NCBI GenBank assembly: GCA_030671985.1
Contig: DAOVHI010000011.1
Coordinates: 1-16,807 of the forward strand
Origin: JAHJDO01 sp030671985 [NCBI: bacterium]
Lineage (GTDB): Bacteria > JAHJDO01
DNA length: 16,807 bases
Reading direction: 5' to 3'
Each line of letters opens with the position of its first letter. Position 1 is the first letter of the stretch. The position numbers and the translations under genes are program-made. Under the pieces are notes generated by a model. That model was not told the DNA's origin and made no database searches. It worked only from the letters and a program-made list of their open reading frames with translations. Shown here piece by piece: positions 1 through 16,807 of this stretch.

Positions 1-766
1 GGGAGTCTTCATATCCAATAAAAGAAGAAATTTCAGAAATATTATAATCCGTTTCAATAAGCAGTCGCTTTGCATGGTTAATTCTTATACTGGTAAGATA
101 ATCAATAGGGGATTTACCTATAATTTTCTTAAAAATATTACCAAAATATGTTTCACTTAAGTTTGCTTCCACGGATATATCTTGCAATGTTATACCTTTT
201 TGATAATTGGTTCGCATGAATTTTTCTGCTTTGATTATATTTTTATAACTTTTTATTCTTCGAAATTGAAGTGTGTCTTTTGTGTTTAGATAAGCATTTA
301 AAATAAGCCCCAATAAAGCTTTTAACTCTCCACTTGTTATGATAGAAGATGCATCCGATTGGCTGCGAATGTGATAGATAATGGCGGAGCAGATTGTTCT
401 TGCTTCAATGTCTGCTTTTAGGTGAACAATACGAGGCCATATTTGATTATTTTTTAGTAGAGGTGTTTTCTTTCTCAACTTGTTTGTACTGTAAAAATTA
501 AAGTGGATGTAGTAACGGCAAAAATTTTCATCTCCTTTTGTATATATATTGAAATTTTCACCAGGGTATACAAGAAGAATATCCCCTTTTTCAAGGTGAT
601 ATTCGGTATCATCTACAACCAACACTCCTCTTCCTGACGCAACAAAATGAAGATCATGGTCAGAACAAACCTGAGTTTTTTTATTTTTTTCAACAAACCC
701 CGGAAGAAAACTGGTTTTTCCTGCAGAATTCACTATTGGAGAAATATCGTTGAGGTCTTTACTCAT
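1..766 (-). CDS. AraC-family transcriptional regulator, 3' end cut by window edge
   Basis: A DNA-binding regulator; 255 residues are visible and the frame is open through base 1, so roughly 25-35 C-terminal residues are missing. Residues about 38-85 look like an AraC-type cupin sensor (GRGVLVVDDTEYHLEKGD, then VYPGENF), which in this family usually binds a small sugar or related ligand. Residues about 190-255 carry the AraC double helix-turn-helix: first helix pair around ITLQDISVEANLSETYFG, the linker GKSPIDYL, and the start of the second around YNISEISSFIGYEDS. The ATG at 766-764 lies 6 bases after the icd stop, in the same frame, and has no clear Shine-Dalgarno sequence, so translation probably depends on ribosomes finishing icd. 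It is the last visible gene of the long minus-strand train and may regulate the nearby hydrolase/aminotransferase/isomerase genes (inference). The family call is firm; the ligand is unknown. Confidence 0.93.
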   Translation of the reverse strand, partial: MSKDLNDISPIVNSAGKTSFLPGFVEKNKKTQVCSDHDLHFVASGRGVLVVDDTEYHLEKGDILLVYPGENFNIYTKGDENFCRYYIHFNFYSTNKLRKKTPLLKNNQIWPRIVHLKADIEARTICSAIIYHIRSQSDASSIITSGELKALLGLILNAYLNTKDTLQFRRIKSYKNIIKAEKFMRTNYQKGITLQDISVEANLSETYFGNIFKKIIGKSPIDYLTSIRINHAKRLLIETDYNISEISSFIGYEDS

Positions 767-772
767 GTTTAA

Positions 773-1984
773 CTATTCTGTCATATTTTTTATGACTTCA
801 TCTCCGAATTCAGAGCATTTAAGAAGCTTTGCGCCATTCATCAATCTTTCAAAATCATATGTAACTTTTTTGCTTGAGATTGCCTTGCTTATCCCTTTAA
901 CAATAAGATCTGCGGCATCCTTCCATCCAATATATCTAAGCATCATCTCTCCTGACAATATCACTGATCCAGGGTTAACTTTGTCCATATCTGCATATTT
1001 TGGCGCTGTGCCGTGAGTTGCCTCAAATATTGCGTGACCGGTATCATAGTTGATATTCCCGCCGGGCGCTATTCCAATCCCTCCTGCTTGAGCAGCTATC
1101 GCATCCGAAATATAATCTCCATTAAGATTCATTGTAGCTATTACATCGAATTCGTCAGTTCTTGTTAATATTTGCTGCAAGAAAATATCGGCAATAGCAT
1201 CTTTTATTAAGACCTTTCCCTGAGGAACAATTCCTTTACATTCTTCCCATGAGATAACTTCTTCAGGAAACTCGTTTTTTGCCAGCTCATATCCCCATGT
1301 TCTAAACGCTCCCTCTGTATACTTTTGAATATTGCCTTTATGAACAAGAGTTATGCTTTTTCTTTTATTGTTTATTGCATACTTTATTGCTGCTCTTATT
1401 AGTCTTTTGCTTCCAGTCTCACTTATTGGTTTTATTCCTACGCCGGAGTCTTCTTTAATATGCCATCCAAAAGAATCTTTGCAAAAAGCAATAAGCTTCT
1501 TTACATCTTCTGAATATGCCTGTAGTTCCAGCCCTGCATAGACGTCTTCAGTGTTTTCCCGAAAAACAACTATATCGACTTTTTCAGGATGTTTGACCGG
1601 ACTCGGAACACCTTCAAGCCACTTTATTGGCCGCAGACAAACGTATAAATCCAATAATTTTCTAAGAGTTACGTTCAGACTTCTAAAACCGCCGCCAACA
1701 GGTGTTGTTAGGGGACCCTTTATCCCTATCAGATATTCCCTGAAAGCGTTAACTGTTTGTTCAGGCAGCCATTCCTTTGTTTTTTTATACGCTTTTTCTC
1801 CTGCAAATATTTCTTTCCATACAATCTTTCTTTTGTCTCCATATGCCAAATCAACCGCAACATTAAACACTCTTACCGAAGCTCTCCAGATATCGGGACC
1901 GATTCCGTCTCCCTCAATGAATGGAATAATTGGTTTATCTGGTACACATAGCTGCCCATCTTTCATTTTGATTTGGTTGCCCAT
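773..1984 (-). CDS. icd: NADP-dependent isocitrate dehydrogenase
   Basis: Oxidative decarboxylation of isocitrate to 2-oxoglutarate with reduction of NADP+, a cytoplasmic citric-acid-cycle step. The 403-residue protein is colinear with the E. coli Icd type (about 416 residues). Substrate residues are visible: S102 and N104 in RSLNVTLR, R108, R118, R142 in [12 protein letters not shown]149 and K216. Metal-binding aspartates are D262, D290 and D294 (NLNGDYISD). NADP+ rather than NAD+ use is indicated by K329-Y330 in HGTAPKYA and Y376/R380 in VTYDFERLM, which match the E. coli residues that hold the 2'-phosphate. S102 corresponds to the E. coli AceK phosphorylation site, but no aceK is in the window. 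The start lies 2 bases after the aconitase stop, with an AAAGGG-type ribosome site inside the end of acn, so the two consecutive cycle enzymes are probably co-translated. Confidence 0.97.
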
Positions 1985-1986
1985 TA

Positions 1987-3924
1987 TTATTTGCCCTTTC
2001 TTTTTATATAGTTCAGCAATCCTCCTGCCGCTATTATCTGTTTTTCTTTTTCAGTAAAATCGTGTTTCAACTCAATATCAACATTCTTGGTCTTGTTTTT
2101 TAGTTTCGAATTTTCTGCTATCGCTTTCTCTACATCCCTGATTTCCACAATATCGCCTGCGTTTAAACGCTGATAATCATCGGGTTTCATGAAGATAAGA
2201 GGCAGAATACCAAAGTTTATTAAATTCGTTCTATGAATTCTTTCTATGGATTTTGCGACAACGGCCTTTACTCCCAGATACATTGGACATATAGCCGCAT
2301 GTTCACGGCTTGAACCCTGTCCGTAACTCAGCCCAGCTACAATAATATTACTGTAACCGTCTGATTTGTTGTCCTTGCATTGTTTTGGGAAAGATGGCTC
2401 AATTCCTTCAAATACAAATTGAGAATATTTCTTAATATTGGAGCGGTATTTCAGTCTTGACCCTGCCGGCATTATGTGATCAGTAGTAATTTCATCTCCT
2501 ACTTTGATTGCAATCCTGCCATTGATGTTTTTAGATAAAGGTTCGTTTATTGGAGACTCTCCGATATTAGGACCTTTACATATCTTTGTTTTTTTGTACT
2601 CAGGTGCCGGTGAGATGATCATAGTGTCATCTACGCAAAATTTCTTCGGCAAAGTAAAATACGGAAAAACAAGTTCTTTAAGATCGCGTGGATCAGTGAC
2701 TACTTCGGATAGCGCGCATGCAGCAGCTGTTTCAGGACTTGACAGATAAACGGAAGCAGATTGAGTTCCGCAGCGACCCTTGAAGTTTCTATTATTGGTT
2801 CTGATGCTCACTGCTTTTGTGGCTGGAGCATGGCTGTTGCCGATGCAGAATCCACAAGCGCATTCCGCAATTCTGGCGCCTGCATCAATCAATGTAGAGA
2901 GACTGCCATCATCGGTTATCATTTTTAATACCTGTCTTGAACCCGGGGAAACCACAAAACTTACGCTTTGCGGGATTTTACGTCCTTTGACTATATGAGC
3001 GGCTGTCTTAAGATCATTGTAGGAAGAGTTGGTACAGCTGCCAATGATTACCTGATCTACTTTCTTACCAACCAGTTCCCTCACAGTTGTAACATTGCCC
3101 GGGCTATGAGGACATGCAAGCATTGGTTCAATCTCATCAAGATTAATATTTATTATCTTTTCGTACTTGGCATCCGAGTCTGCTTTTAATTCTTTCCACT
3201 GATATTCTCTATTCTGAGAGAGAAGAAATCTTTTCGTAAGCTTATCACTCGGAAATATTGAAGTAGTAATACCAAGTTCAGCTCCCATATTAGTTATGGT
3301 CGCTCTTTCAGGAACATCTAAACTCTCAAGTCCGCTGCCTCCATATTCTATTATGATTCCAACGTTTCCTTTGGCGCCGAACATCTTTAAAATTGTAAGT
3401 ATAATATCCTTCGCATTTACCCACGGATTTAATTTGCCTTCCAGATTAATACGGATGATTTTAGGATAACGCAGTGTATATTCGCATGTTCCCATTGCCA
3501 CAGCCACGTCCAATCCGCCTGCTCCGATAGCAAGCATCCCCATGCCTCCTGCTGTCGGAGTGTGGGAATCAGAACCAAGAAGTGTTTTGCCAGGCTCTGC
3601 AAATCTTTCCAGATGCACCTGATGACATATTCCGTTTCCTGCTTTTGAAAAATAAGCTCCATACTTACTGGCAGCAGTTTGAAGATAACAGTGGTCATCG
3701 GCATTTTCAAAACCGGCTTGTATCGTATTATGATCAACGTAACTGACAGACAGTTCCGTCTTTATCTTTGGAATTCCCAGTGATTCAAACTGGAGATAAG
3801 CCATTGTTCCCGTAGCGTCCTGTGTAAGAGTTTGATCTATTCTTATTACAATCTCCTCACCAGATACCATTTTCCCTTTTAAAAGGTGTTCTTTTATAAC
3901 TTTCTCTACTATACCAAAACCCAC
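1987..3924 (-). CDS. acn: Aconitate hydratase, short Aquifex-type
   Basis: Interconverts citrate and isocitrate through cis-aconitate using a [4Fe-4S] cluster. Cluster ligands are C297 ([11 protein letters not shown]) and C357/C360 ([13 protein letters not shown]). Other family signatures are [15 protein letters not shown] near 115-129, the substrate-loop motif [11 protein letters not shown] near 377-387, and the swivel-domain serine/arginine motif [14 protein letters not shown] at 531-544. At 645 residues it is much shorter than AcnA (about 890) and resembles the class annotated as 'putative aconitase, Aquifex type'. The start is GTG at 3924-3922; AGAAGGG lies 7 bases upstream, and no better start exists before the stop of the preceding gene 19 bases away. 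It is directly followed by icd, giving two consecutive steps from citrate to 2-oxoglutarate. No citrate synthase is visible. Related LeuC/homoaconitase enzymes are less likely because both the catalytic and swivel domains are present in one chain and the partner is icd. Confidence 0.93.
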
Positions 3925-3943: not shown

Positions 3944-4780
3944 TTACAGTAATTGTTTTAATGTCTTTGCATACTTTCCAATAACATCCAGATTGTCATC
4001 CCAGTACGTCTCAAGGGAATACCAGCCGTTATATGAGCGGCTTTTTAGGAATTCTATAAATTCTTTTACTTCCGCAATTCCTGTTCCTAATTCGGCTTGC
4101 CCTAACCATCTATCTCCTTTTGCCGGATAACCGGTGCCTTCCTGTGTTTCCTTTACATCTTTGATATGAACATGTCTTAGTATATCCCAGAATTTCTCAA
4201 GCGCAACTACAGAAGATTCTGCTCCGTAATATGAATTTGCGGAATCTCCTACAAAATACAGCGGCGAATTTTTCATCATAGAAAATATGTCCTCAAGCAT
4301 TTCCGATGTTGACATAACATCATAAGAGATACCAAATGCCTCAGTAGCAATGTCCAAACCGTGCTCTTTTCCGGCTTCGATCGCATTATCAATAGAAGCG
4401 GCAACAAGTTTTCTTCCTTCTTCGGGAGACATATCTTCAGGCAGCCTGTTTCCGTTGGTCATGGCAAGAGCAGGTTTCAAAACAGAAGCTGAGTTAATCA
4501 TTACTCTTGTTTTTTTACATGCCTCCTCAAAGTCTTTGCCTCCGGATTTTAAATGATTGACAATAAGGTCTATGTTAGGAATGCACATATCTCTCTTTGT
4601 TATTTCTTTTAAAACGTCACGCAACAAATCATGATTAAGATAAAAATCCTCTGCTTCCAGAAACATAGGTTCTATTCCTGTAATGCCATACGATTTTATC
4701 GTATCTAAAAAATCACGAAAAGCACCAAGATCAGTAAACAGTTCTTTGGTATGTTTATAAGTCATTAATGAAATTTTCAT
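3944..4780 (-). CDS. Sugar phosphate isomerase/epimerase-like TIM barrel (AP_endonuc_2 family)
   Basis: A 278-residue xylose-isomerase-like TIM-barrel protein; family members isomerise or epimerise sugars, keto-sugars or inositol derivatives with a divalent metal. Likely metal and catalytic residues are E147 (ATEAFG), D179 (FVGDSAN), H203/H205 (HVHIKD) and E257 (YSLETYW), the usual E-D-H-E set. An early TIM-barrel strand is visible as ITGIEPMF near residue 33. The open frame continues 13 codons upstream to 4819, but ATG 4780 is chosen because AGGAG sits 5 bases before it and the protein then begins at the first barrel strand (MKISLMTYKH). That start lies 1 base after the stop of the DegT aminotransferase, so the two are probably translationally coupled. 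The substrate is not deducible; a keto-sugar or inosose made or used by the neighbouring aminotransferase is a reasonable guess. Confidence 0.85.
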   Translation of the reverse strand: MKISLMTYKHTKELFTDLGAFRDFLDTIKSYGITGIEPMFLEAEDFYLNHDLLRDVLKEITKRDMCIPNIDLIVNHLKSGGKDFEEACKKTRVMINSASVLKPALAMTNGNRLPEDMSPEEGRKLVAASIDNAIEAGKEHGLDIATEAFGISYDVMSTSEMLEDIFSMMKNSPLYFVGDSANSYYGAESSVVALEKFWDILRHVHIKDVKETQEGTGYPAKGDRWLGQAELGTGIAEVKEFIEFLKSRSYNGWYSLETYWDDNLDVIGKYAKTLKQLL

Positions 4781-4781
4781 T

Positions 4782-6062
4782 TTAACTCCTATAAGCTTCT
4801 GCAACTTTACAGAATGCATCTATCATATATTGGATGTGTTTTTCTTCATACACCGGATGAATAGGAAATGTACAGGTTCTCTGTTCAAGCCATGAAGCAT
4901 TTTCGCATATAAAGCCTGAATAGTCTACTGCTTCAGCCCGCGTGTATTCTTTTGACTCAAACGGGAATTTAGCCGTGCCAAATCCCATGTGTTCGGTAAA
5001 TGCCTTTTCTCTGTAGGACTGCCACCACTGAACAGGCATAACAGGAACGCCTTCCTTTGCTATAGAATCTACAAAGGTCTGAATATCGCATGTCAAATTA
5101 TCCATATTCAGTGTAATTGGGAAGAGCCAGAATGCATTTAACCTGTCAGACGTATGAGGAGGCAAATACTTGACGGCATTATGACTGGATAGTGCTTTTA
5201 TTATCATCTCTCCGTTTCGTATTCTGTTTTTCAAATGATAGCTGTCAAGCCTTGCCAGTTCTTTCAGTCCGATAGCTGACTGTATTTCTGTCATTCTATA
5301 ATTAAAACCGACCATCTCGTGAATATATGGAAGTCTCTTGCCCTCTGCCTGAGCTTTGAGTCTTGCAGGGATGTTATACCCATGATCTCTGAATGACTTG
5401 CATTTCCATGACAGATCTTCATCATTTGTAATTGTGCATCCGCCTTCGCCGCCGGTCGTAAAGTGTTTAGTCTGGCAGAAACTAAATGCTCCGGCATTAC
5501 CTATTGTACCGACTTTTTTACCTTTATAAACTCCTCCGAAGCATTGCGCGCAGTCTTCAATTACAAACAAGTTATGTTTTTTTGCAATATCCATAATCGG
5601 ATCCATATCGCAGACAATGCCATATAAATGCACAACAAGAATGGCTTTGGTTTTTTTAGTTATTTTTTGTTCTATGTCCGCGGGGTCAATTGTATGATTT
5701 TCTTTTTTAACATCAGCGAAGATGGGTATAGCTCCTGCCTGAAGAATGCAAAAGGAAGATGCTATGAAGGAATATGAAGGACATATTACCTCATCTCCCG
5801 GCCCTATTCCAAGACACGAAACTGCTGTATGCAGCGCAGCGGTTCCGTTTATTACGGATATACCGAATTTTGCTCCATTCCACTGCGCAAACTTGTTTTC
5901 AAATTCCATTCCCAGTGGACCTGTCCAGTAATTAGTTTTTCCATTTCTTAAAGGTCCCATTGCGGCCTGAATTGTTTCCTCTTCAAAATGCGGCCATTTT
6001 GGGAATGATTCCTTGCAAACAGGTTCTCCTCCGCTTATCGCTAGCTGTTCTTTGTTCGACAT
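4782..6062 (-). CDS. DegT/DnrJ/EryC1/StrS-family PLP aminotransferase
   Basis: A fold-type I pyridoxal-phosphate enzyme of 426 residues. These enzymes usually transfer an amino group from glutamate or glutamine to a keto-sugar or ketocyclitol. The Schiff-base lysine is K199 in SFCQTKHFTTGGEGG; D170 in VIEDCAQ should pair with the pyridine nitrogen; INGTAALHTA at 71-80 is the phosphate-binding loop. The opening LAISGGEPV is reminiscent of the glutamine:scyllo-inosose aminotransferases of aminocyclitol pathways, but that is recall, not an alignment. A strong AAAGGAG lies 9 bases upstream of ATG 6062, inside the end of the ceramidase-like gene. It lies between a putative hydrolase and a TIM-barrel isomerase, each 1 base away, so all three likely serve one pathway. 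The family is certain; whether the role is biosynthetic or catabolic is open. Confidence 0.94.
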   Translation of the reverse strand: MSNKEQLAISGGEPVCKESFPKWPHFEEETIQAAMGPLRNGKTNYWTGPLGMEFENKFAQWNGAKFGISVINGTAALHTAVSCLGIGPGDEVICPSYSFIASSFCILQAGAIPIFADVKKENHTIDPADIEQKITKKTKAILVVHLYGIVCDMDPIMDIAKKHNLFVIEDCAQCFGGVYKGKKVGTIGNAGAFSFCQTKHFTTGGEGGCTITNDEDLSWKCKSFRDHGYNIPARLKAQAEGKRLPYIHEMVGFNYRMTEIQSAIGLKELARLDSYHLKNRIRNGEMIIKALSSHNAVKYLPPHTSDRLNAFWLFPITLNMDNLTCDIQTFVDSIAKEGVPVMPVQWWQSYREKAFTEHMGFGTAKFPFESKEYTRAEAVDYSGFICENASWLEQRTCTFPIHPVYEEKHIQYMIDAFCKVAEAYRS

Positions 6063-6063
6063 G

Positions 6064-7398
6064 TTATTTCTCTCCTTTCTTTTTATGTAATGTATTAAGT
6101 AATTCTATTGTTTTCTCTCTTAAAATATATCCTGCTTCCGGTTTAAAAGCCGCACCTGTTGATTCATAACCACCTTGTTCAAAAGATTCCCTTCTGGAAA
6201 TATATCCCAGATAATCTCCGCCTAGTTCTATAATAAAAGTTTTTGCGAAAGGAGATTTTTTCTTTATTTCAAGTCCGAACTCCACAAAATATTCGCATGG
6301 CACAGTTACAAATGCTATATCTCCTATTCTGATACCCGTGATTTCTGTAGCATATTCACCTTTGCCAAGTCCTTGAGCTCTGAGCAACCCCATGCTTGAG
6401 AGAAATTCTTCCATATGTCCAGGCCAATCTTGACCTGCGCAATTTGTTTTGCTTGATACTATTTCTCTTGCCTTCCTTATAGAACTCTCATCATAATCCT
6501 TTAAAGGCAGTTTTACTTGGATTCTTTCTCCTGAAACAGTAACATCATCTCTAAATTTCTCCATCCTTGCAACAGTTTTAATTACTTCGGAACCCAGAAC
6601 TCTTCCTATTCGTGAAGCATGTTCAAAATATTCATATTTTTTATCAGGATTTCTCTTTACATTTGCATGATTGATATCGCCCATAGCGCCTGAAGTGTAA
6701 ACAAACCCTATGTCTCCTATTATATTGGTAATAAGTTTATTCATAACTCCGGGAAAATCTGCCGATACATCATATCCGTCAACAGTGTCCGTGTGCAGAG
6801 CAAAATTAGCTATAAGTCCGTCAATGTCATTATAATCTCTGCCAAAGGCCAACACTCCAACTTCCGGGTCAATTGGTCCGACAGGTTTAACAATATCTGA
6901 ATTACATATTCCGGGATTTGTTACGACTTTCCCATTTTTCATCAGGAATCTGCGATTAAAGGAAACGCCATGCTCTTCTCCGCTTAAACATGCGACTCTT
7001 GTTTTTTTGACTGAGCAGTTTGCCTGTATTGCTGCAGAAGCTATATTTGACGGCAGTGCCTCAAGCCATTTTTCGTCTACGCCATGAGTTATTGTAGTGT
7101 CTTTTTTCCATATTAACGTAGGACCTGTATGAGTATGAGTCGCGCAGATAATAATATTTTTATTAGGAATCCCTGTTTCTTTTACTATAATTTCTCTGGC
7201 AAGTTTCACTTCATCCTTTCCAATTCCAATCAAATCACAGGAAACTATGCAGATTTTGTTTTTACCGTCATCAAATACTGCAGCTTTGGCAAACAATAGG
7301 TCATGAATTTTTTTGGCTATCCTTACATCAAAATGCCCCTGAAGACAGCATCCAAGGTTCGGCGTAATATCTATCTTTGAAAATCCTGCTTTTAACAT
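6064..7398 (-). CDS. Neutral/alkaline ceramidase-like hydrolase, cytoplasmic short form
   Basis: A 444-residue protein matching the N-terminal catalytic domain of neutral/alkaline non-lysosomal ceramidases. The family opening AGFSKIDITP is at residues 4-13. Zinc-ligand candidates are H88/H90 in ATHTHTGP and H202 in FALHTDTV. Two features differ from true ceramidase as I recall it: there is no signal peptide, and the GDxS motif that carries the nucleophilic serine appears as GDIN (240-243), with Asn at the serine position. The C-terminal Ig-like domain of full ceramidases (about 650-780 residues) is absent. Many bacterial relatives occur next to sugar genes, and ceramide hydrolysis has not been shown for them. 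AAGGAG lies 7 bases before ATG 7398. The next gene starts 1 base after the stop. Amide, ester or other hydrolysis of a sugar derivative is possible; the substrate is unknown. Confidence 0.85.
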   Translation of the reverse strand: MLKAGFSKIDITPNLGCCLQGHFDVRIAKKIHDLLFAKAAVFDDGKNKICIVSCDLIGIGKDEVKLAREIIVKETGIPNKNIIICATHTHTGPTLIWKKDTTITHGVDEKWLEALPSNIASAAIQANCSVKKTRVACLSGEEHGVSFNRRFLMKNGKVVTNPGICNSDIVKPVGPIDPEVGVLAFGRDYNDIDGLIANFALHTDTVDGYDVSADFPGVMNKLITNIIGDIGFVYTSGAMGDINHANVKRNPDKKYEYFEHASRIGRVLGSEVIKTVARMEKFRDDVTVSGERIQVKLPLKDYDESSIRKAREIVSSKTNCAGQDWPGHMEEFLSSMGLLRAQGLGKGEYATEITGIRIGDIAFVTVPCEYFVEFGLEIKKKSPFAKTFIIELGGDYLGYISRRESFEQGGYESTGAAFKPEAGYILREKTIELLNTLHKKKGEK

Positions 7399-7418: not shown

Positions 7419-8291
7419 TTATTGCCTTTGGTAATAAGCAATGCCGCTGTTATTGGAAGGGTCGGATAGTTTGGGATTATTGCTGATAGCAAATTTCATT
7501 TGAGCCGCAGCCTGTTCAGGTTTTGCCTGTTTTAAGTAAACCAGTCCAAGATTGTAATGAGCATAGTAAAATTTCGGATCGTATTTTATAGCAAGTTTTA
7601 ATTGCTCTTCAGCTTGTACCAGCTTATCTTTCTGTAGATATACCGCGCCTAAGTTATTATGAGAAGCTACATGTTTAGGATCATGTTCAATAGCAAGTTT
7701 ATATTGCTCCTCGGCATTCTCTAATTTACCCTGCTTCCAATAAATGACTCCGAGGTTGTTGTAACTATCGGGATATTGAGGACTATGCTTGATGGCGAGC
7801 TTTAGATTTTTTATAGCCCCAGGAGTATTATTTATATCAGAATATAGTCTGGCGAGACTAAAATATGCCCAAGTATATTCAGGGTCATAAGAGATGGCAA
7901 GTTTGTAATGCTTTGCCATTTCCTCAAGTCGTCCAAGCTTTTTATAAACATCCGTTAAACAATCATAAGCCTTGGTATATTTAGGATTATATTTAATAGC
8001 AAGCGCGTATTGAGATATAGCTTCGTCAGATTTATTCTGTTTTTCATACGCTTTTCCCAGCTTGTAATAAGCTTCCACATACACAGGGTTATATTTGACG
8101 GCAAGTTTATAGCGTTTAACAGCTTTTTTAATTTCCTTATTACCAACGTGTTTTTCTGCAAGGATGAAGTGTTTCTCAGCTTTTTTTCTATTTGTATCCG
8201 ATAGCTGAAAAATCTCTGTGTTTGATTGAGAATAAGAATACGCGAAAGAGAAAAATAGAAAAAATATTGCAAATATAGCGGTTGTTTTCAT
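7419..8291 (-). CDS. Exported tetratricopeptide-repeat protein
   Basis: A 290-residue protein with an N-terminal hydrophobic stretch at residues 3-20 after MK, ending in small and polar residues (AYSYSQS), which reads as a Sec signal peptide. Residues about 37-274 form seven regular 34-residue tetratricopeptide repeats. Consecutive helices end in variants of LAIKYNPKY, and the later units carry the canonical NNLGVIYWKQGKLENAEEQYKLA pattern (split here as NNLGVIYWKQGKL, then ENAEEQYKLA). Such arrays are protein-binding scaffolds; no enzyme domain is present. The last unit breaks off in SNNSGIAYYQRQ, so the array ends mid-repeat. ATG 8291 directly follows the phosphofructokinase stop with no spacer, suggesting coupling, although a functional link to glycolysis is not evident. 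The partner and location (periplasm or outer surface) cannot be told. Confidence 0.9.
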   Translation of the reverse strand: MKTTAIFAIFFLFFSFAYSYSQSNTEIFQLSDTNRKKAEKHFILAEKHVGNKEIKKAVKRYKLAVKYNPVYVEAYYKLGKAYEKQNKSDEAISQYALAIKYNPKYTKAYDCLTDVYKKLGRLEEMAKHYKLAISYDPEYTWAYFSLARLYSDINNTPGAIKNLKLAIKHSPQYPDSYNNLGVIYWKQGKLENAEEQYKLAIEHDPKHVASHNNLGAVYLQKDKLVQAEEQLKLAIKYDPKFYYAHYNLGLVYLKQAKPEQAAAQMKFAISNNPKLSDPSNNSGIAYYQRQ

Positions 8292-9464
8292 CTATCTTTT
8301 TAATTTTCCAATTTCAGGTAATTTACCCACTAAAGGTCTCGCATATGCAAGAAACTTTTCCGTTACGTTGTTGCCTTCCTCGTTCATGTAGTCTCTGGGC
8401 ATACTTCGTGTATTTTTAGCAACAGAATGAAGAGGCGTTATGAAAAGCCCGCTTGCTTTTATTGCAACACTCCCGTCTTTAAGACCGCTTTCCGCAGCGC
8501 TCTTTACTGCGAATGCTCCGACACGTCTTGCTTCTTTCGCATCCGCTTCGGAAACAATTTCTGGAAAACATCTCTGCAAATAACCAAATGTATCGGCTCT
8601 TGCTCTAAGCTTGCCGGAAATATTTTCTTTAATAATATCTATCAGCATGTCTCCAAGTCCTCCGGATCCGCTTAATTGCACATTTCCGTGAGCATCTTTA
8701 ACTCCTGATTGAAAAATGGAATTACCTTCATCATCACTTATCCCTTCGGAAACTGCTATCTGACATCGCCCCAGCTTGTTGTAAACATCTTTAACGTCCT
8801 GTATGAATTTCTCCTTTGAAAATGGAATTTCAGGAACGTAAATAAGATGAGGGCCGTCATTCTCATGCTGTCTTCCCAGAGCAGAAGCGGCAGTTAAAAA
8901 TCCTGCGTGTCTTCCCATAATAATGTTAACCTTAATTCCGGGAATAGCTCCGTTATCAAGATTATCACCCATTATTGCCATTGCAACAAATTTTGCCGCA
9001 GAACCATAACCAGGACAATGGTCAGTAACGAGCAGATCATTATCAATAGTCTTTGGTATATGAAAAGATGTCAGATCATATCCTGACTTATTTGCAAGTT
9101 GATTTATAATGTCCGCTGTTTCTGCTGAATCATTGCCTCCGATGTAAAAGAAATATCTGATATTATTCTTCTTGAATATATCAACTATTTTTCCGCATTC
9201 CTCTTCAGTAGGTTTTTTTCTCACGGATCCCAGCGCGGCAGATGGCGTGTTGGCTACTTTTTCAAGAACTGTAGTGTCTTGTGCTCCCAAATCAATAAAA
9301 TTCTCATTAAGTAGTCCTTTTATGCCGTGTAACGCGCCGTAAAATTTTTGAATTTCAGGATGTTTACCTGCTTCCATTATTGCGCCGACTAAGCTCTGAT
9401 TAATAACACATGTTGGTCCGCCCGACTGACCTATAACGGCATTTCCTATTACTTTGCTGCTCAT
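8292..9464 (-). CDS. pfp: 6-phosphofructokinase, pyrophosphate-dependent type
   Basis: Phosphorylates fructose 6-phosphate to fructose 1,6-bisphosphate. The 390-residue protein shows IGQSGGPTCVIN at 11-22, GGNDS at 109-113, PKTIDND at 137-143 with the catalytic aspartate D141, and MGRHAGFL at 183-190. Donor-specificity positions favour pyrophosphate: E. coli ATP-PfkA has GGDGS and PGTIDND, while this protein has Asp at the second of these glycines (D112) and Lys in place of the Gly before TIDND (K138), the pair known to exclude ATP and bind PPi. With PPi the reaction is reversible, so the enzyme may also serve gluconeogenesis or sedoheptulose phosphate turnover, which would fit the adjacent transketolase. 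GGAGAG lies 6 bases upstream of ATG 9464, 17 bases after the transketolase stop. The family is certain; donor choice is inferred from residues. Confidence 0.94.
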   Translation of the reverse strand: MSSKVIGNAVIGQSGGPTCVINQSLVGAIMEAGKHPEIQKFYGALHGIKGLLNENFIDLGAQDTTVLEKVANTPSAALGSVRKKPTEEECGKIVDIFKKNNIRYFFYIGGNDSAETADIINQLANKSGYDLTSFHIPKTIDNDLLVTDHCPGYGSAAKFVAMAIMGDNLDNGAIPGIKVNIIMGRHAGFLTAASALGRQHENDGPHLIYVPEIPFSKEKFIQDVKDVYNKLGRCQIAVSEGISDDEGNSIFQSGVKDAHGNVQLSGSGGLGDMLIDIIKENISGKLRARADTFGYLQRCFPEIVSEADAKEARRVGAFAVKSAAESGLKDGSVAIKASGLFITPLHSVAKNTRSMPRDYMNEEGNNVTEKFLAYARPLVGKLPEIGKLKR

Positions 9465-15903: not shown

Positions 15904-16281
15904 CTATTTAATATTATCAATAAATCTGGAAAGACACGCTTTCATTTCCTCACCATTTGAGTTAAATCGTATGCCAATATTGTAATTTTTTTCTTTCCGT
16001 GAATACCAGATTATCCGGCCGGTTAATTCTAAATATTCTTGGATATCCGGCACAGGGATTTTTACATGGAGTCTTGTCTTTTCTTTTATTCTAGGATATT
16101 CCACATCATTATTTCTCGGTATTTTTATGCAAATCCCATCCAGACTTATATTCTTTGCACAGCCACAATATCCAATTAAATGTTTTCCTAAATCATCTTG
16201 CAATCTTAATTCAACACCAATACTAGCAGTATTTCGCGGATGTTTTCTTCTTTCCTTACTTGTCCATGTAACTGTTTTCAT
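15904..16281 (-). CDS. PilZ-domain protein, downstream copy
   Basis: A small (125-residue) stand-alone PilZ protein, a cytoplasmic receptor type for cyclic di-GMP. The two binding motifs are intact: RRKHPR at 11-16 giving RxxxR (R12, R16), and NISLDG at 44-49 giving (D/N)xSxxG. A beta-barrel pattern follows (TRLHVKIPVP, YLELTGRIIW, YNIGIRF) with a short C-terminal helix (EEMKACLSRFIDNI). No other domain is fused. The start ATG 16281 lies inside the end of the upstream PilZ gene (26-base overlap), with AAAGGG 8 bases before it. It is clearly a paralogue of that gene, sharing LQDD-GK, NISL-GICIKI and IKEKT-L-VKIPV. The output target is unknown; motility, exopolysaccharide or surface functions are usual for the family. 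Confidence 0.9.
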   Translation of the reverse strand: MKTVTWTSKERRKHPRNTASIGVELRLQDDLGKHLIGYCGCAKNISLDGICIKIPRNNDVEYPRIKEKTRLHVKIPVPDIQEYLELTGRIIWYSRKEKNYNIGIRFNSNGEEMKACLSRFIDNIK

Positions 16282-16657
16282 AATCGTATCCCTTTCTTTT
16301 TATGCTCTCAACGAACTGAAAAAGAAACACTTCCTTCCCCTTATTATTATTTGGAAGAAACTGTATACCGACCCTGCTACTCTTTTCATCCTGTGAACGC
16401 CACGTCACTTGTCCGATTAGCTCTAAAGGCTGACTCGTCCCACACACAGGAATTTTTACTTGAAGTTTTGTCTTTTCTTTTATCTCGCGATATTTTAGAG
16501 ATATTTTTATGCAGATACCCCTAAGACTTATGTTTTCACAATGCCCGTGACATTGAATTCGTGATTTCCCTGAATCATCCTGCAATCCAAGCAGGACATC
16601 GGCGCTAAAAGAATATCGCGGACATTTTCTTCTTTCTTCGCCATTCCAATTACGCAT
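16256..16657 (-). CDS. PilZ-domain protein, upstream copy
   Basis: A 133-residue PilZ protein, paralogue of the next gene. Binding motifs: RKCPR at 10-14 (RxxxR) and NISLRG at 42-47 ((D/N)xSxxG), so cyclic di-GMP binding is likely. The barrel segments TKLQVKIPV, LELIGQVTW and SRVGIQF align with those of the paralogue, followed by a C-terminal helix (VFLFQFVESIKRK). The frame is open to 16705, but that part is recombinase coding sequence in another frame; ATG 16657 has GGAG 7 bases upstream and gives an N-terminus matching the paralogue. Its start overlaps the recombinase stop in the 8-base string ATGCGTAA, so translation is probably coupled to the recombinase. It carries several cysteines (C12, C36, C40, C72) beyond those of the paralogue. 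Confidence 0.88.
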   Translation of the reverse strand: MRNWNGEERRKCPRYSFSADVLLGLQDDSGKSRIQCHGHCENISLRGICIKISLKYREIKEKTKLQVKIPVCGTSQPLELIGQVTWRSQDEKSSRVGIQFLPNNNKGKEVFLFQFVESIKRKGYDYENSYMDK

Positions 16658-16807
16658 ACAATCTCTCCAAAGCCTTTTCCATATCCTCATTAAAAACGTC
16701 TGCATAAACCTCTGTTGTTTTTATTGAGCTATGACCAAGCTGCTTCTGAACCAGTCTTAGATTAAATCCGCTTGCCTTATAGAGATGGCTTGCGTATGTA
16801 TGTCTTA
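16650..16807 (-). CDS. Tyrosine recombinase/integrase, C-terminal fragment cut by window edge
   Basis: The last 51 whole codons of a phage-integrase-family tyrosine recombinase; the rest lies beyond the right edge. The visible part begins at the box II arginine (RHTYASHLYKASG, the R of HxxR) and continues with QLGHSSIKTTEVYADVF, giving the conserved histidine (25th visible residue) and the nucleophilic tyrosine (34th, codon at 16704-16706). A helix of 17 residues follows to the stop at 16650-16652. The catalytic end therefore looks intact. The fragment cannot tell an XerC/XerD-type housekeeping enzyme from a mobile-element integrase. Its stop overlaps the start of the PilZ gene by 8 bases, so it is the upstream member of a recombinase-PilZ-PilZ operon. 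No attachment site or tRNA is visible in the window. Confidence 0.92.
   Translation of the reverse strand, partial: RHTYASHLYKASGFNLRLVQKQLGHSSIKTTEVYADVFNEDMEKALERLYA
16663..16668 (-). promoter_or_regulatory. Ribosome binding site deciding the upstream PilZ start
   Basis: The minus strand reads GGAGAG, with its GGAG core 7 bases from ATG 16657, inside the recombinase reading frame. It supports the short form of the PilZ protein over the longer open frame reaching 16705. Confidence 0.65.

Follow-up and report, generated by a model that had tools for sequence, protein, structure and literature searches.

A ceramidase-like gene recurrently paired with a DegT aminotransferase gene, and its possible place in a dispersed amino-sugar or aminocyclitol pathway

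Do neighbouring genes for a ceramidase-like hydrolase, a pyridoxal phosphate (PLP) aminotransferase and a TIM-barrel isomerase-like protein act together on one substrate and, if so, on which? The question is raised by a 16,807-nucleotide (nt) stretch of DNA (the window) from the bacterium JAHJDO01 sp030671985, which is the whole of contig C54 of a 1.25 Mb genome in 152 contigs, estimated to be 92% complete (G000). The three genes lie on its minus strand. CER (6064..7398, 444 amino acids (aa), P0003) encodes a ceramidase-like zinc amidohydrolase with a catalytic domain only, recognized by Pfam PF04734 and a fold model. DegT (4782..6062, 426 aa; PF01041, 304 bits) encodes a DegT/DnrJ/EryC1/StrS PLP aminotransferase with K199 as the presumed PLP lysine, and TIM (3944..4780, 278 aa, P0001; PF01261, 66 bits) a sugar isomerase/epimerase-like barrel with a presumed metal site of E147, D179, H205 and E257. 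For TIM an inner ATG start was taken, the mechanical list of open reading frames (ORFs) having given 291 aa.

The original prediction, made from the window alone, took the three genes for one coupled module that could process an N-substituted sugar or aminocyclitol. Its three family assignments are borne out by the Pfam matches. Comparison with other genomes shows CER and DegT to be a recurring gene pair; TIM looks like a local addition to it, the case for the triad as a fixed set is weak, and DegT is co-inherited with genes that lie elsewhere. We give about an even chance to the reading that these genes contribute to a dispersed pathway acting on an N-acyl amino sugar or aminocyclitol, of which the window carries a share; its substrate and direction are unproven.

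Recurrence of the CER-DegT pair

Genome-wide searches for CER and for the orthogroups described below covered 289 genomes, scoring being limited in each genome to the 6 to 8 best candidates. CER was present in 37 genomes, one of which had as many as 7 matches. From the 104 matches (98 outside the genus of the window), 60 regions were fetched by working down the list and passing over two sites that another fetched region covered; in three regions (L111, L113 and L120) the ORF filter kept no CER gene. Of the 63 CER genes, 11 had a DegT gene on the same strand and less than 200 nt away. Among comparison genes of at least 300 aa, this held for 0 of 152 in the control regions and for 11 of the 387 further genes in the regions around CER (Fisher p ~2e-6 against the pooled 539 genes). 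The 20 control regions were hand-picked on contigs from nine genomes, with G276, G139 and G115 supplying 13; they are not genome-matched to the CER regions, and one (L150) has a DegT of the window-type orthogroup. Of 24 genomes sampled, 8 contributed CER-DegT pairs, and the suggested link between the ceramidase-like gene and DegT thus extends beyond the window.

In a quick tree of 51 DegT rows, some of them fetched because they were DegTs, the CER-linked proteins fall into two main clades with a single outlier; the CER-link label changes 8 times, 7 of the changes being forced by starred branches (shuffled mean 13.2). The CERs linked to window-type DegT belong to several lineages in a quick tree of 76 CER rows of 360-530 aa, with 6 changes. 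Since the linked genes fall in several DegT and several CER lineages, the pairing recurs and is not one inherited block.

The same test gave a TIM gene beside 0 of 63 CER genes, compared with 3 of 153 in the controls and 6 of 401 others, TIM neighbours being identified with a local profile whose sensitivity is limited (only 13 TIM genes recovered in the first set); a general TIM-CER adjacency was dropped on this count. Across genomes, co-occurrence was seen for CER with DegT but, by this profile, not above controls for TIM with CER. A DNA-pattern scan of named genomes yielded 10 loci, two of them (L035 and L036) from isolate CSMAG_2459; DegT was absent from the fetched stretches of the remaining eight (L037-L044), and in L038 a TIM gene lies 186 nt from CER.

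In the genome collection the phylum of the window genome consists of five genomes of one genus (G000-G004). Identities to the window proteins are oddly uneven across the genus, at 94-95% for DegT (orthologs in G001 and G004) while the adjoining CER reaches 81-84% (G001, G002 and G004) and TIM 84-91% (all four other genomes). The orthologous genes are contiguous only in the window genome. In G001 CER and DegT are paired and followed by DUF1015, glycosyltransferase and sugar transferase genes, and the ortholog of TIM is found on a different contig, adjoining an HNH-nuclease gene (Pfam-tested). By gene lengths and homology G004 has a similar layout, with a near-identical DUF1015-type protein next and TIM on another contig, again beside an HNH-nuclease gene. 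In G002 the triad is neither shown nor excluded, because the DegT sequence is interrupted at the ends of three contigs: it follows CER on C54, follows a TIM remnant on C100, and precedes TIM, aconitase and isocitrate dehydrogenase genes on C62. The remnant (G002:C100:1-400, L031) has an internal deletion and a frame change and directly precedes the DegT start; the first 140 nt of C100 equal the start of contig C54, which suggests that two near-identical DegT copies broke the assembly. G002 also carries, on C61, a separate, non-orthologous DegT-TIM-CER set (36%, 16% and 30-33% identity, respectively) with a sulfatase gene directly after it and another further on.

The TIM orthogroup is confined to the five genomes of the genus, with one weak match outside. 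As no contiguous ortholog of the triad was seen outside the window genome, and TIM is unlinked in G001 and G004, the idea of a conserved, coupled three-gene module was abandoned.

Genes co-inherited with DegT and genes beside CER

Two orthogroups accompany DegT in other genomes: GFO, an IolG-like Gfo/Idh dehydrogenase, and a NagB-like protein. Their limits were set at gaps in the scores, with cut-offs chosen after viewing (519/252 bits for DegT, 507/288 for GFO and 383/294 for the NagB-like protein). At 519 bits or more the window DegT orthogroup occurs in 14 of the 289 genomes, counting the split gene of G002, and the next match scores 252 bits. GFO was found in 13 genomes and the NagB-like protein in 17; 12 of the 14 DegT genomes have GFO, 14 of 14 the NagB-like protein, and 12 of 14 CER. 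Counted by genus, the numbers are 10, 10 and 13 of 260 for DegT, GFO and the NagB-like protein, and each of the 10 DegT genera has the full set (hypergeometric p of 3e-18 for DegT-GFO and 9e-16 for DegT-NagB-like, genomes not being independent samples). Three genomes (G285, G276 and G139) have the NagB-like protein without the DegT orthogroup.

Outside the genus of the window, DegT adjoins GFO in 8 of 10 genomes, CER in 5 and the NagB-like gene in 3, including G128, where the two genes are divergent. The phylum of G050 comprises three genomes, each with the DegT orthogroup and with CER adjacent to it. Within the genus a GFO ortholog is present in three of five genomes; one of these, the 62% complete G003, has GFO and TIM but yielded no match for CER or the NagB-like protein and no ortholog of DegT. 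Partners of the kinds seen here, namely the IolG-like dehydrogenase, the NagB-like protein and PIG-L, lie outside the window and were not visible to a reading of it alone.

The GFO ortholog on G004:C38 (L194) has as neighbours an E1/transketolase-type gene and genes for ornithine cyclodeaminase-like, class IV aminotransferase, diaminopentanoate-dehydrogenase-like, polysaccharide-deacetylase and MTTB-like proteins, as well as three URO-D genes; by gene lengths the locus on G001:C101 (L193) is similar.

An assignment of the NagB-like protein as a true NagB was dropped, since two scores against TIGR00502, 64.9 and 43.9 bits, do not reach the equivalog cut-off of 236.9. Two residues, the Asp in NMDE and the His in HIAF, are present in 20 of 20 aligned rows, and the Glu in 19.

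N-deacylase genes stand beside NagB-family genes in two forms. NagB-family genes directly abut CER in L116 (281 bits) and L039 (178 bits), the latter with an amidohydrolase gene between two CER genes, then the NagB-like gene. The NagB-like gene of the orthogroup has a PIG-L de-N-acetylase gene as its immediate neighbour in G001 and G050 (by Pfam), in G128 (by local profile) and, where the neighbour is recognized by homology to that of G001, in G000, G002 and G004. The PIG-L profile had four rows, of which three (L228, L229 and L231) were chosen by position and by homology to the Pfam-tested L230 and match it by construction. By association, the presence of deacylase genes beside NagB-family genes points more strongly than anything else here to sugar N-deacylation as a possible role of CER. 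The order in L230:8626-12838 (G001:C109) is thymidylate kinase, DNA polymerase III delta', PSP1, PIG-L, NagB-like and RNase E/G (Pfam), and L228, L229 and L231 resemble it by gene lengths as far as their contigs reach.

Other neighbours of the NagB-like gene are an esterase (G019), an M16 peptidase (G265), GH4 and an M24 peptidase (G042), GntR-UTRA (second copy, G145) and an arginyl-transferase (G139). DegT/CER loci include an ABC sugar transporter (sugar-binding protein and permease), ROK, GH20 and aldose epimerase genes, and SDR, BNR, GH4, GntR-UTRA and sulfatase genes were found at DegT/CER or NagB-like loci. The DegT orthogroup member of G282 sits with ROK, TIM, sugar-binding protein and permease genes, in an order repeated in G145 by lengths and profiles, and that of G166 with GH20, ROK and aldose epimerase.

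The encoded proteins and the gene run of the window

CER matches Ceramidase_alk (PF04734) with 36.6 bits (cut-off 32.1) over residues 4-206, that is, in its first half only. Its AlphaFold2 model (pLDDT 92.4) superimposes on Pseudomonas neutral ceramidase 2zws with Z 39.8 over 388 residues (root mean square deviation 3.0, chain residues 4-490 of 646) and on neutral ceramidase 4wgk with Z 37.3. The whole catalytic fold and the positions of metal and catalytic His, Arg and Tyr are thus shared, whereas CER ends before the C-terminal domain and is only 18-19% identical to the two enzymes. H88, H90, H202, E369, Y399 and Y411 of CER align with H97, H99, H204, E411, Y448 and Y460 of 2zws (chain indices), whose zinc-binding and catalytic roles we in part presume. 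Together with R149 these CER residues are conserved in 63-71 of 71 homologue rows of 370-520 aa. The score against the neutral ceramidase NCBIfam equivalog is 24.4 bits, far under the cut-off of 1200, and a true ceramidase was dropped as a candidate. No secretion-like N-terminus was seen by eye, and CER looks like a cytoplasmic zinc amidase with a neutral-ceramidase fold. A 108-aa ORF in G001 (G001:C108:29553-29747; L034:7431-7757) shows ~70% identity to only the last ~64 CER residues, as a second, fragmentary CER.

In DegT the motif SFCQ..K..TTGGEGG contains K199, which is invariant among 13 aligned rows; of the solved structures, 7l7x and perosamine synthetases outscore the scyllo-inosose aminotransferases. 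In TIM, H205 is invariant and E147, D179 and E257 are at least 90% conserved (21 rows). The TIM model is closest in fold to the isomerase Art22 (Z 28.7), with ketose 3-epimerases at Z 25.6; these members of the AP_endonuc_2 superfamily share the fold and the conserved E/D/H/E set, but identity is 19% or less. An assignment of TIM as IolE was dropped, the score against the inosose dehydratase model TIGR04379 being 27.9 bits with an equivalog cut-off of 290.

The trio belongs to a single run of 13 minus-strand genes (15353 to 1) with 12 junction gaps of -35 to +30 nt. As had been noted, the CER/DegT and DegT/TIM gaps are 1 nt each and the ribosome sites lie inside the preceding gene, with a Shine-Dalgarno-like AAAGGAGAG for DegT within the last codons of CER and AGGAGTT for TIM within those of DegT. 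Because every gap in the run is 30 nt or less, this spacing proves little, and it was dropped as a sign of special coupling. An AraC-type regulator with a cupin-like domain does stand at the end of the train (2..766, minus strand, 255 aa, cut by the contig end; PF12833 and PF02311), but two genes separate it from TIM: aconitate hydratase, directly downstream of TIM (1987..3924, minus strand, read 3924-1987; NF005558 equivalog above cut-off), and NADP isocitrate dehydrogenase (773..1984, minus strand, read 1984-773; TIGR00183 above cut-off). Both are context, and the aconitase is not claimed for the pathway. Also context, on the same strand, are a TPR-repeat protein directly upstream of CER (7419..8291; many TPR families) and a pyrophosphate-type phosphofructokinase-like protein (8292..9464; NF010675 subfamily above cut-off); the run further includes a transketolase gene, named by eye. 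At 15904-16705 lie two neighbouring minus-strand ORFs, alike in sequence (starts ERRKHPR and ERRKCPR) and perhaps PilZ-like.

A proposed pathway and its alternatives

The proposal starts from what was observed: the gene layout, the folds, the metal and PLP residues, the recurrent CER-DegT pairing and the co-inheritance of DegT with GFO and the NagB-like protein. Each reaction, the substrate and the direction are what we infer, a catabolic direction being preferred. CER would remove the N-acyl group from an N-acylated amino sugar or aminocyclitol, and DegT would then exchange the freed amine for a ketone, or act in reverse, with a partner of the glutamate/2-oxoglutarate type. The IolG-like Gfo/Idh enzyme, in relatives and in the three genus genomes that have it, could interconvert the ketone of DegT and an alcohol; the NagB-like protein may provide a second, deaminating exit, by deamination or alternatively isomerisation; and the genus-specific TIM may isomerise or epimerise the keto product. 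Processing of an N-substituted sugar or aminocyclitol by the trio, as first suggested, fits the neighbourhood evidence and the recurrence of CER-DegT, but not as the work of a conserved three-gene module.

Part of this chemistry has precedent. MosB is a DegT-type aminotransferase and MocC an IolE-like TIM barrel. In vitro, IolG and MosB convert myo-inositol to scyllo-inosamine only when both are present (PMC6668481, in excerpt), so that an aminotransferase and an IolG-type dehydrogenase act together in rhizopine (scyllo-inosamine) metabolism as they may here; rhizopine catabolism also needs mocC, described as encoding a protein of unknown function (PMC10107442, in excerpt). The excerpts do not mention ceramidase-like, NagB-like or PIG-L genes, and the window genome differs in being without a GFO ortholog. 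For the aminocyclitol of hygromycin A, a pairing of the inositol dehydrogenase Hyg17 with the aminotransferase Hyg8 has been proposed (PMC10949010, in excerpt); this is secondary metabolism, and the excerpt mentions no CER, NagB-like or TIM partners. Neighbourhoods of PF01408 sequences with DegT (PF01041) are common, with 15,139 occurrences in the same excerpt (PMC10949010). The dehydrogenase-aminotransferase chemistry is thus known, and the links to CER, NagB-like and PIG-L genes were not met in the literature: one open-access collection gave no report of a cluster joining a ceramidase-like gene with DegT, NagB-like or PIG-L genes. NagA/NagB catabolism likewise places an N-deacylase gene beside a NagB-family gene, and a fused NagB/PIG-L protein exists (PRK02122); here, however, the deacylases are CER or PIG-L, and the NagB-like protein falls below the nagB cut-off and lacks one catalytic Asp.

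Several observations weigh against the proposed pathway. No GFO ortholog was found in G000 (92% complete) or G002 (90%), all their candidates having been scored, and in G145 and G282 the DegT, GFO and NagB-like genes occur together but CER is missing. CER-Gfo/Idh adjacency (6 of 63 CER genes; 4 of 146 controls, 18 of 383 others) is not clearly above controls, nor is CER-TIM adjacency. The NagB-family genes next to CER, in L116 and L039, fall short of the cut-off of the co-inherited orthogroup. In that orthogroup the Asp of GDGHIAF, which we take to be the catalytic D141 of NagB, is replaced (V 11, C 6, M 1, T 1 and P 1 in 20 rows); because this residue is absent and the score is far below the nagB cut-off, deamination is not assured. 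In the profile alignment of CER the serine of GxxSPN, presumably the catalytic serine of ceramidases and, as we assume, Ser354 of the human enzyme, is Asn (N243), and the column holds N in 38, D in 9 and S in 9 of the 71 rows. Human Ser354 lies at the base of the pocket and stabilises Arg257 (PMC6952831, in excerpt). The surroundings are also unlike a classical inducible catabolic operon: the PIG-L/NagB-like pair of the genus sits in a tmk-holB-PSP1 order, and CER-DegT stands beside glycolysis and tricarboxylic acid cycle genes in the window or beside DUF1015 and glycosyltransferase genes in G001.

The last of these settings belongs to the main rival, in which DegT, with a Gfo/Idh enzyme, forms an amino sugar destined for surface glycans or lipids, and CER trims an N-acyl group. 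Pairs of UDP-GlcNAc 3-dehydrogenase and aminotransferase make such sugars; UDP-GlcNAc 3-dehydrogenase is the second-best NCBIfam model of GFO, perosamine synthetases are among the closest solved relatives of DegT, and the glycosyltransferase and sugar transferase genes of G001 have counterparts of similar length after the DUF1015-type gene of G004. Against a biosynthetic role stand the transporter and ROK genes around DegT in G282 (and in G145, by lengths and profiles) and GH20, ROK and aldose epimerase in G166, and we consider this role rather unlikely. We likewise regard as unlikely that only CER-DegT is a genuine two-gene unit, to which chance, in a gene-dense chromosome, added TIM and perhaps other genes of the run, the three enzymes serving different pathways. 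Such an accident would agree with the unlinked TIM of G001 and G004, the genus-only orthogroup, CER-TIM adjacency at control level and the small gaps throughout the run. It is at odds with the second, non-orthologous DegT-TIM-CER set on G002:C61, with TIM directly after the DegT end on G002:C62 and a TIM remnant directly before the DegT start on G002:C100, and with a TIM gene in the same string as DegT-GFO, four genes away, in G145 and G282. That CER instead cleaves ceramide-like N-acyl lipids, with DegT and TIM processing the released amino alcohol head, is suggested by its neutral-ceramidase fold and metal site; the replaced serine, the missing C-terminal domain, the N-terminus without a secretion-like appearance by eye and the Pfam-scanned CER/DegT neighbours, largely sugar enzymes, make it very improbable.

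A wider form of the amino-sugar or aminocyclitol reading, to which we give somewhat less than an even chance, is an undescribed pathway in unrelated families, with a fixed core of DegT, IolG-like and NagB-like enzymes and interchangeable N-deacylases (a serine-less ceramidase-fold or a PIG-L protein), the ceramidase-fold proteins being cytoplasmic sugar N-deacylases. The short ceramidase-like proteins, found in 37 of 289 genomes, are named for a lipid that they may never meet. The link of CER to DegT, NagB-like and PIG-L genes offers sugar N-deacylation as a testable function for this possibly misnamed family, and the co-inherited DegT, GFO and NagB-like core points to a pathway open to assay with a few purified enzymes.

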